A stretch of DNA of 33,616 bases from IMG/VR virus record IMGVR_UViG_3300036832_000401, positions 1 through 33,616 of that record, one strand, 5' to 3'. Both the position numbers and the translations under genes were made by a program. The notes below the pieces were generated by a model. The model had not been told where the DNA came from, did not search any database, and was given only the letters and a program-made list of their open reading frames with translations. This DNA is from a virus. Positions 5,431 to 31,764 of this stretch are shown here, in pieces (positions within the stretch are counted from its first letter, which is position 1; each line of letters opens with the position of its first letter).

Positions 5431-7329
5431 ATGGCAGAGTATCTGCCGCCGCCTCCCGGCTACGACCCGCTCGCCAATCTGGACAAGAGCAAACGCGCGC
5501 AGGCGATCATCGCCTTGGGTGGCGGGCGCTCGACCCCGGCCCAACAGATGCTCGGCCTCGAAGAGGGCGACAACAAACCGCTGCTGCGCTCGCTCGGCGA
5601 GAGCGCGGCCCACATCCTCGGCATCCCGAAGGCCGCGCTGGAGGCGGCCAGTGGCTACGCCGACACCGGACACTACAACGCAGGCCCGATCCTCGACGCC
5701 GCGCTATTGTCGATGTCGGGCGGCGTCGGCGGCACGGCGGAAGGCGGTGTCGCGCTGGGATCAGGCCCGGTGAAGGCCGGTCTCGACATGAGCCAAGAGG
5801 CACGCATGGCGCGCGCCGCCGATCAGGGTTTCGACACCTCGACGCCGCTTTATCACGGCACCTCGAAAGACGTCGATTTCCAGAAGTTCAAGGACAGCCG
5901 TCACGGCACATGGTCGACCACCGATCCTGCCGACGCCTCGGGCTACGCCAAGTTCAACGACAGCCAAGGCTATAGGCTCGTGCCGGGCGGCGGCTGGCAA
6001 ATGGAGCCGGTCAACTCGGCCTCGCGCGTGCTGCCGCTCTACGGCAAACCGCTGGAGAACCCCTACAACGTGATGGAGAAGGGTTATCCCGAAGGGCTTG
6101 ATCGTGTCGGCAACTACAAGAAGGCGCAGAGCGACTGGTTCGATCAGTTGAAGAGCCAAGGCTATGACGGCGTCCAGATGCCGGGCGGCGTGCGGGTCGA
6201 TTTCGACAATGCCAACCTGCGCTCGACGGTGGCCAAGTTCGATCCGAAAAATTCCGGCAAGTCGATGCTGCTGGGCGCGGGGCCGACCGACGAGAGCGCG
6301 GCGGCGGCGGTTGGTGCCGGGCGTTTGGTCAAGCGCGGCAACCCGGACTACGACCACCCGATCTCGGACGCCATGCTGCGCACACCGCTTTCGGAAATGC
6401 AGCGGGATCGTCTGCTGCTCGACCCGAAGGCCTCGCCGGAAAAACTGATTTCGCCGGAGGATGTGGTCGGCAAGGTTTTGATCCCGACCATCGGCGACAC
6501 CTCGGCGAGCGGCGGTCTGTTGACGCGCGTCGGCGATTTTAACTTGAAAGACCCGGTCGGCCTGCACGGTGGCCACGGCTTCATGTCGCAGGGCGACAAC
6601 ATCTGGGCCTCGACGCCGGGCGCTGCGACCACGCTGGCGAACCGGGTGAGGGCTGCGAGCGAGGCGACCGGCAAGGAGCCGGTGCTGACCTATTCGGCGA
6701 TGAACCCGCAGGGCGTGGATTTTTCCCGACACGTTGCCGATCCGCTTTCGCAGATCATGGGCGATCAGAAACTGAGCGCGGCGAGGGCCGCCGAGTTCGA
6801 CGCGATGATGCGCGGCGCGCGCGAGGGCACACGCTTTCCAGCGACGCCGGATTTTCCGGGTGTGCGCTCGGATAATTTGCGCGAGTGGCTGTTGTCGCAG
6901 GACACCCCGGGCAGCACCCGGGCAAAGTTCGCCAAGATCGCGGACCTTGCAAAATTCCAGCAGGAGGGCCTGCCCGGGACGGCAGAGGTGCGTCACGCCG
7001 TCAGCGATCCGCGCCTGCTCAATGTCGGCCTCGGCGACGCCGGGCTATCGATGGCGCGGGCCGATCCTCGCGGCCTCACCGCGCCCTCGGCGCATCCAGA
7101 CTATTCGTCGGGGATCGTCGGCGGCGGTGGGGGCTACATGGGCGGGTTCGGCATGTCGCTGCCGCCAGAGGCAGTGTTCCCGCAGATCACCAAAACCTAT
7201 CGCGAGCGCGCCCCGACATCACGGTTCGACTATCTCGCCCAGCGCGGCATGGCACCCACCTACGAGGTGGCCGACCAGCAGTGGCTCGATCACATCATGC
7301 CCTACTGGCTGAAGGGTTCGATCAAATGA
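5431..7329 (+). CDS. Large phage protein with ADP-ribosyltransferase-like (ART-PolyVal-type) domain
   Basis: The 632-residue product has three parts. Residues 1-135 are low-complexity Gly/Ala-rich. Residues about 139-270 look like an ADP-ribosyltransferase of polyvalent phage proteins: YHGT at 141-144, a TTDPADASGYA block at 163-173, GYDGV at 244-248, and a beta-strand block VDFDNANLRST at 256-266. Residues about 285-632 form a second conserved-looking domain that I cannot name. ADP-ribosyltransferases move ADP-ribose from NAD+ to target proteins. Lying between portal and scaffold, it may be packaged and injected, as T4 Alt is. Its 3' end is overlapped by the antisense gene at 7302. Confidence 0.72.
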   Translation: MAEYLPPPPGYDPLANLDKSKRAQAIIALGGGRSTPAQQMLGLEEGDNKPLLRSLGESAAHILGIPKAALEAASGYADTGHYNAGPILDAALLSMSGGVGGTAEGGVALGSGPVKAGLDMSQEARMARAADQGFDTSTPLYHGTSKDVDFQKFKDSRHGTWSTTDPADASGYAKFNDSQGYRLVPGGGWQMEPVNSASRVLPLYGKPLENPYNVMEKGYPEGLDRVGNYKKAQSDWFDQLKSQGYDGVQMPGGVRVDFDNANLRSTVAKFDPKNSGKSMLLGAGPTDESAAAAVGAGRLVKRGNPDYDHPISDAMLRTPLSEMQRDRLLLDPKASPEKLISPEDVVGKVLIPTIGDTSASGGLLTRVGDFNLKDPVGLHGGHGFMSQGDNIWASTPGAATTLANRVRAASEATGKEPVLTYSAMNPQGVDFSRHVADPLSQIMGDQKLSAARAAEFDAMMRGAREGTRFPATPDFPGVRSDNLREWLLSQDTPGSTRAKFAKIADLAKFQQEGLPGTAEVRHAVSDPRLLNVGLGDAGLSMARADPRGLTAPSAHPDYSSGIVGGGGGYMGGFGMSLPPEAVFPQITKTYRERAPTSRFDYLAQRGMAPTYEVADQQWLDHIMPYWLKGSIK

Positions 7330-7526
7330 GAACCATCGCCCTGCGAAAGTTGCAGCGGCAATTCGAGGGCGCTCGCCAGTCGCGACGCGCACAGCTTGGC
7401 GCGCTCGTAATCGGCAAAGGTCTCGACCACGGCGACGATGTCGCCATCGGCAGCGACAAGGTTGACATAGGTGTCGAGGGAGCCGGTGTCGGTGGTGTCG
7501 ATTTCGACATGATGAACCTTGGGCAT
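7302..7526 (-). CDS. Lone leftward small gene (moron candidate), 74 aa
   Basis: This is the only minus-strand gene in the structural module. The ATG at 7526 is preceded by AAAGGACAGGA, a good ribosome site; an upstream TTG at 7574 is less likely. The product begins MPKVHHVEIDTTDTG and looks like a compact alpha/beta protein with no membrane segment or known motif. A promoter at 7553-7581 and a copy of the phage 17-bp operator lie directly upstream. The gene ends 28 bases inside the ADP-ribosyltransferase-like gene, with no visible terminator. Such independently transcribed inserts are called morons. Function unknown. Confidence 0.6.
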   Translation of the reverse strand: MPKVHHVEIDTTDTGSLDTYVNLVAADGDIVAVVETFADYERAKLCASRLASALELPLQLSQGDGSHLIEPFSQ

Positions 7527-7552
7527 GGCGTCCTGTCCTTTGTGGGACGCCT

Positions 7553-7581
7553 GTTCTAGCACAGCGGCGCTCAAGTCGCAA
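7553..7581 (-). promoter_or_regulatory. Predicted promoter of the leftward 7302-7526 gene
   Basis: Read on the minus strand, a -35 box TTGCGA (7581-7576) is followed after exactly 17 bases by a -10 box TAGAAC (7558-7553), preceded by TG in the extended -10 position. The predicted start lies about 20 bases before the gene's ribosome site. The -35 box lies inside the 17-bp operator at 7575-7591. Confidence 0.5.
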
Positions 7582-7591
7582 TCATTACGAC
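7575..7591 (-). promoter_or_regulatory. Remote copy of the phage 17-bp operator
   Basis: On the minus strand the sequence is GTCGTAATGATTGCGAC. It differs at only two positions from the site at 31364-31380 beside the repressor gene (GTCGTAATTAGTGCGAC). It is an imperfect palindrome with GTCGYA-type half-sites. It overlaps the -35 box of the leftward gene, so a bound repressor would block that promoter. Confidence 0.65.
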
Positions 7592-7739
7592 CTATACGTC
7601 CGCAGCGAACGAAATCGCTGCACCACGCCTCACATCACGACACGATGTGCCCCTGCTGACCGGGGATCGATCAGTCACGCCTGCCACGCGCGAGAGCGGG
7701 GCCACGTCGCCGGGCACGATAGCCCCGGGGAGCAAGACG
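7592..7739. other. Intergenic leader with two inverted repeats
   Basis: Between the leftward gene's operator and the scaffold gene there is no convincing coding frame. Two inverted repeats are visible. One has 7-bp arms (GCAGCGA/TCGCTGC, 7602-7621). The other is CACATC...GATGTG at 7631-7649; its arms and flanks (CACATCAC and GATGTGCC) recur at 24315-24336. No clear rightward promoter was recognised. Confidence 0.5.
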
Positions 7740-8585
7740 ATGAGTGACACGACCCAAGGCGCAGACGCGCCTTCCGACAGCACGTTGTTTCAGGAGGCCG
7801 TAGAAAAAACTACGACGCTTGAAAAATTCGAGAACCCCGAACCACCGAAAGAACCCGACAAGCCAGCCGCCCCGGTCGAACCCAAGCCTGCCGACAAACC
7901 GGCAGACAAGGTCGAACCTGAGGCGCATGTGCCTGCCGGTCGCCTGCGCGAAGAGAGCGAAGCGCGGCGACGCGCGGAACGGGAGCGAGATGAATTGCTG
8001 GCGCGGTTTCGACCGCAACAGCAACCGCCAGAGAAGAAAGACCTGTTCACCGATCCCAGTGCCTTCGTCCGCGAGGAGGTCGCACCCTATCTTGAACAGA
8101 TCGTCGCCCAACAGCAGCGTGACCGGGAGGCGTTTTCCGCCGACTGGGCCATCCGCAATTTTGGCGAACCAGTGGTCACCGCAGCCCGGCAGTCTCTTGA
8201 GCAGGGCATGTCGCGCGGCGACCAGAATGCTTGGGCGGTCTACCAGCGCGCGATGCGCTCGCACGATCCTTACGGTGTCATCACCCGATGGCATCAGGAG
8301 CGCGAGACGCTCAACTCGATTGGTGGCGATCTCGATGGTTATCGAAAGCGTGTTCTCGAAGAAGCGTTGAGCGACCCGGAATATCGCAAGCGGGTCATCG
8401 AGGCGGCCAAGGGTCACGCACAGGCGAACGGCGCAAGCGTCGCGCGTCCTGCGCAAGTCACATCACCGAAGGCTCCGAACGTGCCATCGCTGTCGAACAT
8501 CGGCGCGGGCGGCGGGGACGAGCAGCAGCAAGAACCCGACGACATGACGTTGTTTCGAGCAGCCACTTCAGCAAAGCGGCGCTAA
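7740..8585 (+). CDS. Probable scaffolding protein
   Basis: The start ATG at 7740 has a GGGGAG site seven bases upstream; the frame extends further left, but without a good start. The 281-residue product is highly charged and mostly helical. It has a Pro/Glu/Lys-rich N-terminal third (about 25-70), a coiled-coil-like Arg/Glu segment (about 75-95), and a Gly-rich linker before a basic C-terminus (SAKRR). A charged helical protein with a basic tail, placed directly before the capsid gene, is the usual profile of an internal scaffold. The assignment rests on position and composition, not on a recognised motif. Confidence 0.68.
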   Translation: MSDTTQGADAPSDSTLFQEAVEKTTTLEKFENPEPPKEPDKPAAPVEPKPADKPADKVEPEAHVPAGRLREESEARRRAERERDELLARFRPQQQPPEKKDLFTDPSAFVREEVAPYLEQIVAQQQRDREAFSADWAIRNFGEPVVTAARQSLEQGMSRGDQNAWAVYQRAMRSHDPYGVITRWHQERETLNSIGGDLDGYRKRVLEEALSDPEYRKRVIEAAKGHAQANGASVARPAQVTSPKAPNVPSLSNIGAGGGDEQQQEPDDMTLFRAATSAKRR

Positions 8586-26051: not shown

Positions 26052-26447
26052 TCATTTTTTCCTTTTGGACGCCGCGATGATTGAGAGGATCAGGTTTTTC
26101 ATCGGCGACTTGATGTCCTGATCGAGGGTTTTAAATTCCTCGACGAGGCCGACCGTGACGGCATCGATGGTGGTCTGCACCTTGAAGGCGGATTTCCAGC
26201 CGATCAGTTCATGCGGCGTGGTGCTGAATAGCTCGGCCAATTGGATCAACCGCGCCACCGACAGGCGGTTGACGCCTTTCTCGTATTTCTGGATTTGCTG
26301 GAACGAGACCTTCAAGGCGGTGGCGACCTGATCCTGCGACATCTCCATGCCAAGGCGGGCGAGCCGCAGTCGCCTGCCGACATCGGTGTCGACGTCGGTG
26401 GCAGCGCGCTGGTTAGTTTGCAGCGCCGGTTTCTTGCGCGGTGCCAT
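26052..26447 (-). CDS. XRE-family HTH transcriptional regulator, 131 aa
   Basis: Residues about 23-82 form an HTH_3 domain: RRLRLARLGMEMSQDQVATA, then the recognition region SFQQIQKYEKGVNRLSVARL. This is the type common in alphaproteobacterial regulators. Residues 83-131 are a helical extension ending in Lys, with no LexA-type peptidase. It lies in a leftward operon directly after another HTH gene, with a two-base gap. It could regulate the operon itself, act as an antirepressor partner or modulate host genes. Confidence 0.85.
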   Translation of the reverse strand: MAPRKKPALQTNQRAATDVDTDVGRRLRLARLGMEMSQDQVATALKVSFQQIQKYEKGVNRLSVARLIQLAELFSTTPHELIGWKSAFKVQTTIDAVTVGLVEEFKTLDQDIKSPMKNLILSIIAASKRKK

Positions 26448-30228: not shown

Positions 30229-30546
30229 TCACTTGTTTTCGACCGATTGCTTCAACTCGGCGATCACCTCGCGCATGTGGGTGATCTCGTCGTTGACCCG
30301 CACGCAGAGGGTGACGTGATCCTTCAGCTTGGATTTGGCGAACGAGGCCCCCTCCAGCACATGCTGCTCGATCTCGTCGAGTGTCTTGCGCAGGATGCTG
30401 ATCTTGTCGCAGAGGTCGGCGACAACGCCCTCGACCATGCTGTCGATGGCCTTGCGCTGCGGCGAGCCGTAGCCCGGTGGGATAAGATCGTTCTGTGGTA
30501 CGAGGTCGGAGCGGGGCAATTCGGTGCGCTTAGTGCGAACGTCCAT
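30229..30546 (-). CDS. Coiled-coil hypothetical protein, 105 aa (first gene of int operon)
   Basis: AAAGGGAGAAAGCC precedes the ATG at 30546. The N-terminal 30 residues are polar and Pro-containing; residues about 35-105 are one long charged helix with heptad-like spacing (LCDKISILRKTLDEIEQHVLE and HMREVIAELKQSV). A dimeric coiled coil is likely. As first gene after the operator-containing promoter at 30577-30605 it is the most promoter-proximal gene of the int/xis operon. No family recognised. Confidence 0.65.
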   Translation of the reverse strand: MDVRTKRTELPRSDLVPQNDLIPPGYGSPQRKAIDSMVEGVVADLCDKISILRKTLDEIEQHVLEGASFAKSKLKDHVTLCVRVNDEITHMREVIAELKQSVENK

Positions 30547-30576: not shown

Positions 30577-30605
30577 AGGCTAGTCATATTCAATGCGACC
30601 TGCAA
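30577..30605 (-). promoter_or_regulatory. Predicted int/xis operon promoter with operator as spacer
   Basis: On the minus strand, TTGCAG (30605-30600) and TAGCCT (30582-30577) flank exactly 17 bases, and those 17 bases are the operator. Both boxes are weak matches, but the layout parallels the Cro promoter at 31485-31514. Confidence 0.5.
30583..30599. promoter_or_regulatory. 17-bp operator copy at the int operon
   Basis: GTCATATTCAATGCGAC on the plus strand, an imperfect palindrome. It shares GTCATATT and TGCGAC with the copy at 31491-31507 and the same half-sites with the copies at 31364 and 7575. It lies between the leftward int operon and the rightward gene at 30739. Confidence 0.7.
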
Positions 30606-30738: not shown

Positions 30739-30951
30739 ATGGATCAACAGCGGGAATACGACCATTTGAACCATGTCAATTTCATCGTCGGCATGATGCT
30801 CTGCGAGATACCGCGCGACGAAAATTTCGAGCGCGAGGCGCATCGCCTCTACGCCTCCATCGGCGACGCCATGGAGACCTACCTCAAAATCGGCAAGGCC
30901 AACTACGTCAGCGAGGTCGACTGCATCAGTGCGTCGGGACCGCTTTCCTGA
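30739..30951 (+). CDS. Small rightward hypothetical protein, 70 aa
   Basis: The ATG at 30739 has AAAAAGGG about six bases upstream; the long frame to the left is an antisense shadow. The product is helical with acidic and aromatic residues (FIVGMMLCEIPRDENFEREAHRLYASIGDAMETYLKIGK split over two helices). Its 3' end overlaps the convergent repressor gene by 26 bases, so the two transcripts are antisense at their ends. It lies between the int operon and the immunity switch. Function unknown. Confidence 0.6.
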   Translation: MDQQREYDHLNHVNFIVGMMLCEIPRDENFEREAHRLYASIGDAMETYLKIGKANYVSEVDCISASGPLS

Positions 30952-31330
30952 TCTTGGCCCGCACCTCGTCCAGCTTCGCCAGCTTCGCCCGGGCGCTCTC
31001 GACCGTCAGCGAAATGGTGCGCTGTTCTTGGTGCAGGTTCCTGATCTGATCGATGCGGCGCAACAGGTCTTGTGACATGTTGCCCTCCATCCCGAACCAC
31101 AGCCACTCCACCGAGACGCCTTCCAGCTTCTCGATCAGCCGGAAGGCCGTCTCGCGGGCGATGGGGTAGCCGCGCTCGTACATGTTCCAGCGCTTGAACG
31201 GGATGTCGATCAGCTTGGCAAACTCAGGCTGGCTGTCGCCGGTATAAACTTCGCGCAGCAGCCGCAGGCGGTATTTGTAGTCCTCGACCACGAAGCGTCG
31301 TTTCGGAATTTTGGTGGCCTTCTTGACCAT
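30926..31330 (-). CDS. CI-like phage repressor candidate, HTH without peptidase domain, 134 aa
   Basis: The ATG at 31330 has AAGGGG seven bases upstream; longer frames would start inside the promoter. Residues about 18-82 form an XRE-type HTH: RLRLLREVY, SQPEFAKLIDIPFKRWNMYERG, then ETAFRLIEKLEGVSVEWLWFG. Residues 85-134 are a charged coiled-coil tail, probably for dimerisation. The S24/LexA-like self-cleavage domain of lambda CI is absent. It is divergent from a Cro-like gene, with two 17-bp operators between. It most likely keeps the lytic genes off and limits its own expression. Confidence 0.75.
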   Translation of the reverse strand: MVKKATKIPKRRFVVEDYKYRLRLLREVYTGDSQPEFAKLIDIPFKRWNMYERGYPIARETAFRLIEKLEGVSVEWLWFGMEGNMSQDLLRRIDQIRNLHQEQRTISLTVESARAKLAKLDEVRAKIRKAVPTH

Positions 31331-31363
31331 CGTGCATCCCCTTGCCTGTGCAATACTTGCATG

Positions 31364-31380
31364 GTCGTAATTAGTGCGAC
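31364..31380. promoter_or_regulatory. 17-bp operator copy downstream of the repressor promoter
   Basis: GTCGTAATTAGTGCGAC. It falls at about +2 to +18 of the predicted repressor transcript, so binding would act as a roadblock and give negative autoregulation. It is the closest match to the remote copy at 7575-7591. Confidence 0.7.
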
Positions 31381-31484: not shown

Positions 31485-31514
31485 TCGACAGTCATATTGT
31501 TTGCGACATAGGAT
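31485..31514 (+). promoter_or_regulatory. Predicted rightward early promoter (Cro operon)
   Basis: TCGACA (31485-31490) and TAGGAT (31509-31514) are 18 bases apart, and the first 17 of those bases are the operator. Expected start about 31521. This rules out the ATG at 31513 as a start codon and favours 31543. Confidence 0.6.
31491..31507. promoter_or_regulatory. 17-bp operator copy in the Cro promoter spacer
   Basis: GTCATATTGTTTGCGAC, lying entirely between the -35 and -10 boxes of the rightward early promoter. Repressor bound here would block RNA polymerase. Confidence 0.7.
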
Positions 31515-31542: not shown

Positions 31543-31764
31543 ATGCGTAAACTCAATTCACAGGAAGAGGTGATCGCGGCGCTCGGCGGCATTAATCGCT
31601 TCCGCGAAATCCTCGACGCCAACCGCAAGCAGGCATGGCACTGGACCGGGCGCACCGGCCTGTTTCCCGCCTACACCTATCCGCTGCTGCAGAAGGCCCT
31701 GCGCCGTCGCGGCTGCACCGCATCCGACGAACTGTTCTCGAAAAGACGTTCCCGCGCAGCCTGA
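31543..31764 (+). CDS. Cro-like HTH regulator, 73 aa
   Basis: I take the ATG at 31543, which has GAGG six bases upstream; the earlier ATG at 31513 falls in the -10 box. The 73-residue product is a single small HTH: EEVIAALGGINRFREIL, then QAWHWTGRTGLFPAYTYPLLQKAL, the Cro/YdaS-type pattern with a recognition helix ahead of W-x-W. It is divergent from the repressor gene and heads the rightward early operon. It probably competes for the same operators to commit the phage to lysis. Confidence 0.75.
   Translation: MRKLNSQEEVIAALGGINRFREILDANRKQAWHWTGRTGLFPAYTYPLLQKALRRRGCTASDELFSKRRSRAA

Follow-up and report, generated by a model that had tools for sequence, protein, structure and literature searches.

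The window analysed here is the whole of IMG/VR record IMGVR_UViG_3300036832_000401 (33,616 bases), in which terminase, portal, major head, connector and integrase genes could be assigned by PHROG. Relatives of its major head protein, 72–87% identical, sit in 80 viral contigs and also in Bradyrhizobium and Rhizobium chromosomes, which makes a Rhizobiales bacterium the most likely host, and we regard the phage as a temperate phage of soil bacteria of this group. The scaffold-position gene (7740–8585, plus strand), which has syntenic homologues in relatives, lies 5′ of the gene for the major head protein, itself assigned by PHROG. Between portal and scaffold the window carries a rightward ART-PolyVal-like gene (5431–7329; Pfam PF18760, E = 4.9e-5, below the curated cut-off) and, convergent with it, a leftward gene of 74 codons (7302–7526, minus strand). 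Partial homologues of the ART-PolyVal-like gene occur in relatives at a different place, 5′ of terL (L048:2796–3725, L010:2172–2411 and L037:2560–2781).

The leftward open reading frame runs from an ATG at 7526 to a stop codon at 7304–7302 and overlaps the end of the ART-PolyVal-like gene tail-to-tail by 28 bp. An earlier note on this DNA had described a single minus-strand gene between the ART-PolyVal-like gene and the scaffold, and the frame found there is indeed coding-like. Its codon-usage log-odds of 0.41 per codon is at the level of the phage's true genes, falling at the 32nd percentile of true-gene windows of 74 codons, a score that just 0.3% of open shadow-frame windows attain. A ribosome-binding site (AAAGGACAGGA, 7531–7541, minus strand) ends 4 nt 5′ of the ATG. 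The predicted product is MPKVHHVEIDTTDTGSLDTYVNLVAADGDIVAVVETFADYERAKLCASRLASALELPLQLSQGDGSHLIEPFSQ. No homologue of this protein was found in PHROGs, Pfam, NCBIfam or PADLOC, among phages, plasmids, viral contigs or genome contigs, in 48 relative records, or in 397 genomes of one order; the best genome match (L086, E 2e-4), which falls within a dehydrogenase-like frame, was judged to be due to chance. Because the protein is an orphan, the conservation test that the earlier note had named fails for the frame itself, which is absent from every relative and unique to this record. A single-sequence structure model of low confidence (mean pLDDT 64) has a beta-alpha-beta-alpha-beta-beta order and suggests that the product is probably a small alpha/beta protein, and nothing beyond that. 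The best PDB and BFVD matches of the model, IF3-C and SepF-like, had E values of 0.008 or worse and were not used.

Upstream of the ribosome site is the promoter that had been proposed for this gene, TTGCGA-17-TAGAAC, with its −10 box at 7553–7558 and its −35 box at 7576–7581 (both minus strand). Of all promoter matches on the two strands of 7500–7660 it has the highest score, 6.8 vs 7.9 for the phage's cro promoter, and about 0.05 such matches are expected per 100 positions. It agrees with the consensus at only 4+4 of 12 positions and was not listed by a stricter consensus scan. The gene thus appears to have the promoter of its own expected of a moron, in the form of a moderate-scoring best nearby match. 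A rightward promoter at the same place, CTCAAG-17-TATACG, was rejected (2.1 vs 6.8).

The −35 box falls within a sequence that belongs to the phage's control region by type. That region contains a gene for a CI-like HTH repressor (30926–31330, minus strand), the presumed operator binder, which is a transcriptional regulator/repressor by PHROG, matches NCBIfam RstR-like below the cut-off and Pfam HTH_3 weakly, and has homologues in relatives. It also holds a Cro-like gene (31543–31764, plus strand), kept beside the repressor in relatives, and a conserved gene at 30229–30546 (minus strand). The region has three operators, each 5′ of one of these genes: GTCGTAATTAGTGCGAC at 31364–31380 on the repressor side, GTCATATTGTTTGCGAC at 31491–31507 within the cro promoter (TCGACA-operator-TAGGAT), and GTCATATTCAATGCGAC at 30583–30599 in front of the 30229–30546 gene. 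An inverted repeat, TGCAA-tac-TTGCA (31349–31361), adjoins the repressor-side operator and is possibly another regulator's site. Apart from the CI/Cro pair, a second HTH repressor-like gene (26052–26447, minus strand; Pfam HTH_3, 4e-11) is kept in most relatives. A peptide-pattern search for phages sharing the repressor or the ART gene found none; the repressor family came to light later, through tblastn in relatives: homologues occur in 11 long-record relatives, most of which also have the Cro and 30229 genes in the identical divergent layout. The cro promoters inspected in relatives typically read −35, operator, −10, with an operator that is phage-specific (CTCCAAAATTCTTGGG in G018, CTCCAATTTCATTGGAG in G004, GTCGTAACTATTACTC in G011 and G014).

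The remote operator in the structural module, GTCGCAATCATTACGAC, is a 17-bp palindrome at 7575–7591, more than 22 kb from the control-region sites. With a matrix built from the sites at 31364, 31491 and 30583 only, it scores 22.5 and ranks second in the record; the best non-member after it reaches 11.7, and none of 200 shuffles attains its score. The operator is therefore of the immunity-region type by a matrix to which it did not contribute, and it belongs to a family of four 17-bp sites that are the only four in the record. It shares the flank CTAT with the site at 31364. As the earlier note had it, the operator covers the −35 box (TTGCGA, 7581–7576) of the leftward gene's promoter.

Directly to the right of the operator and 5′ of the scaffold gene is a conserved structured RNA leader of about 150 nt (window 7588–7750, plus strand), which is also found just 5′ of the scaffold gene in relatives (L002–L063). 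Across 21 sequences, its 32 named pairs are 94% formed and 20 pairs are changed on both sides; covariation is 0.415 against 0.152 for shuffles and at most 0.093 for slid controls, a score that is favoured by the derivation of the structure from the same alignment. The leader consists of a hairpin array with GCGACA-type loops, the last hairpin lying beside the GGAG ribosome site, and includes a candidate H-type pseudoknot, CCCC[GUGAnC]GGGG...[GnUCAC]. Searches with a covariance model recovered one copy from the window and one each from most of the relatives scanned, and the match nearly always stopped at the scaffold start; Rfam holds no matching family. Translational control of scaffold and capsid synthesis is a possible role.

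In relatives, the slot between portal and scaffold is either empty or occupied by other genes, the pattern of presence and absence by which a moron is recognised. Three loci carry leftward genes there: L029 a 66-aa coiled coil and a 110-aa Cro-like protein, L021 a coiled-coil gene, and L004 a 105-aa Cro-like protein that is 38% identical to the window's Cro. The second Cro-like genes in the structural modules of L004 (622–936, minus strand) and L029 (6381–6710, minus strand) are 38% identical to each other and are related to the phages' cro genes, so that each resembles a remote cro paralogue with a repressor-type site. We scored the slot of each phage with a matrix of its own operators, except that L004 and L021, which are fragments in which the phage's own repressor is not seen, were scored with the matrix of G018, the genome of L029. 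In the own-operator scans the window (rank 2) and G018 each have a slot operator; the G018 site is weaker, its score of 15.1 with the control-region matrix comparing with the 15.8 that corresponds to 0.1 per genome in shuffles. On the two fragments, the best site at each locus (rank 1) lies in the slot, beside the leftward gene. The site, of L029's own operator type, covers the −10 box in L029 (TTGACA-17-TAATTT) and L004 (TTGACT-18-TAATTT), and in L021 likewise, a placement that is most simply read as repression. Own-operator scans of 8 relatives without a leftward slot gene found no slot operator. A slot match in G012, GCCGGAATAATTACGTC, is the portal stop-codon region and was rejected (8.4, rank 38 with that phage's own operators). 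As L029 and L021 are sisters, the relatives add two independent cases to that of the window. What recurs among relatives is the slot with its control, while its cargo is exchangeable.

Such wiring is not confined to the slot. G004 (L005; 16145–20663) and G018 (38389–39365) also have other leftward genes that stand singly, each with a promoter of its own that contains an operator; they encode ArdC, a resolvase, a DnaJ-like zinc-finger protein and small proteins; two of them are ArdC-type antirestriction genes (ArdcN plus zincin domains). Because the operators of these phages control other single leftward genes too, the gene under study fits a habit of this phage group: scattered units of one leftward gene each, under repressor control and of early-lytic type. 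A palindromic motif, TCGNAANNNTTNCGA, is scattered in great excess in G012 (L020), G014 (L023), G023 (L038), G011 (L019), G021 (L035) and G002 (L003). In G012 it occurs 23 times vs 0.8 expected, first of 4096 palindromic patterns. Its half-site resembles the CI operators of those phages (TCGTAA), and it may be a stoperator-like or other whole-genome signal. One perfect GTCGGAATAATTCCGAC in G012 lies inside a terminator-like hairpin and was left out of the operator count.

We propose, with a probability of about two in three, that 7302–7591 is an operator-controlled leftward accessory gene, or moron, in an exchangeable portal–scaffold slot, and that it is CI-repressed and early-lytic. Because its promoter holds the phage's own operator, the gene is probably off while the phage is dormant and comes on when it wakes. 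In the lysogen, the CI-like repressor bound at 7575–7591 would hide the −35 box, and from the position of the operator no expression is predicted in that state. When the repressor is absent, upon induction or fresh infection, the leftward promoter is expected to fire early together with those of cro and the 30229–30546 gene. Rightward structural transcription would later cross the leftward gene and would probably quench its expression. The 74-aa product is expected to act at an early lytic stage, its most likely target being the host or host defences, since operator-controlled leftward genes of relatives encode ArdC and Cro-like regulators. The prediction of the earlier note, off in the lysogen and on when repression is lifted, has good, if indirect, support from a site of the phage's own set over the −35 box here, from sites of another operator type over −10 boxes in L029, L021 and L004, and from the lack of a site where there is no leftward slot gene.

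It is also conceivable, though unlikely, that the effect of the repressor on the leftward promoter is activation, on the model of lambda CI at PRM, which would make the gene a lysogenic moron, expressed while the phage is dormant. The operator sits at the upstream edge of the promoter, its centre near −37 from the predicted start, which alone would be compatible with activation, and opposite-strand morons of late regions can be lysogenically expressed, as is STMMW_20121 of ST64B (PMC7067206). Against activation, the operator is not placed just 5′ of the −35 box but overlaps it, the corresponding sites cover the −10 box in L029, L021 and L004, and other dispersed sites of L029 and L005 fall within promoters of leftward genes of lytic type, ArdC among them. 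Considerably less probable is a stoperator-like roadblock, in which the repressor would, in the lysogen, halt stray rightward transcription into scaffold and capsid genes, the leftward gene being incidental. Cluster A mycobacteriophages are known to have repressor roadblocks dispersed through the genome (PMC6550527), and the six relatives rich in TCGNAANNNTTNCGA would suit such a system; slot operators, however, accompany leftward slot genes only, being missing in the 8 phages without one, and the site at 7575–7591 lies within a promoter.

Marginally less probable still is that the frame is untranslated and that the promoter yields a regulatory antisense RNA against the ART-PolyVal-like mRNA. 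The 74-aa frame is not conserved, and a functional antisense RNA in a structural region is exemplified by STnc6030 of BTP1 (PMC7067206). We find no terminator-like hairpin in 6800–7800, as had been claimed, and the next leftward site of this kind (5447–5433) is weak and at chance level, so antisense transcription into the ART-PolyVal-like gene is possible. The gene-type codon usage and the well-placed ribosome site nevertheless argue for translation, and the leftward slots of relatives hold protein-coding cargo with no ART gene adjoining any of them. We found no support for the suggestion that such transcription limits the ADP-ribosyltransferase-like product, a suggestion whose basis was the missing hairpin. 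A terminator of its own belongs to the classical description of a moron, but it is not indispensable. The hairpin scan sees none near this gene; a Rho-dependent terminator, which is invisible to such a scan, may lie downstream. The least probable reading is that operator and leftward promoter are left over from an earlier insertion and that the gene has no function; an orphan without relatives might suggest this, yet the frame is intact, its codon usage is gene-like and its operator is near-perfect.

The operator-controlled accessory gene that we favour has precedents. Phage P1 provides one for dispersed operators, its C1 regulon consisting of one repressor with scattered sites. In cluster A mycobacteriophages, too, one repressor serves operators and stoperators across the genome, and the site sequence tracks each phage's repressor (PMC6550527), just as the several genome-scattered sites described here are phage-specific and track the repressor. 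Whereas mycobacteriophage stoperators are asymmetric, mostly promoter-free and elongation-blocking (PMC6550527), the window has, in place of many such sites oriented with transcription, only four palindromic ones, all beside promoters. STMMW_20121 in the Salmonella prophage ST64B is likewise a single opposite-strand moron, antisense to late genes and with its own promoter; it is expressed in lysogens (PMC7067206), whereas the window promoter is predicted to be repressed there. P22 pid is an 86-aa orphan moron on the opposite strand of the late region that is silent in strict lysogeny and expressed in the phage carrier state (PMC3573128). Both it and the present gene are small opposite-strand orphans in the late region of a temperate phage, at a place that is empty or holds another insert in relatives. 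The passages on pid describe no repressor operator there (PMC3573128), unlike the own-phage operator over the promoter here, and no sequence relation of the 74-aa protein to Pid was found, with no match among 50,697 phage records. The earlier note had called the predicted regulation the reverse of that of usual lysogenic morons; this is a fair contrast, but not an unprecedented arrangement, since pid is similar (PMC3573128). P22 pid and the dispersed-operator phages are thus the nearest precedents.

Morons are usually regarded as escaping repressor control. The leftward moron described here is instead tied into that control, far from the immunity region, and while the wiring recurs in relatives, operators and cargo differ. 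The present analysis adds an opposite-strand gene in a slot of the capsid operon that is wired directly to an operator, an arrangement that recurs with varied operators and cargo. As a speculation that is more probably wrong than right, phages of this Rhizobiales group might keep a leftward "early" slot in the late capsid operon under their own repressor. Unrelated early genes would be swapped into it; they would stay off in the lysogen, be the first to fire after induction and then be closed down by late transcription from the opposite direction, a collision that would also delay the neighbouring structural genes. The finding also suggests a search for early-lytic accessory genes in prophages that needs only sequence: one would take the operator from the cro promoter and look for remote copies 5′ of small opposite-strand genes. 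The genes so found would be candidates for counter-defence or host takeover, and in relatives of this phage the search already yields antirestriction ArdC genes.
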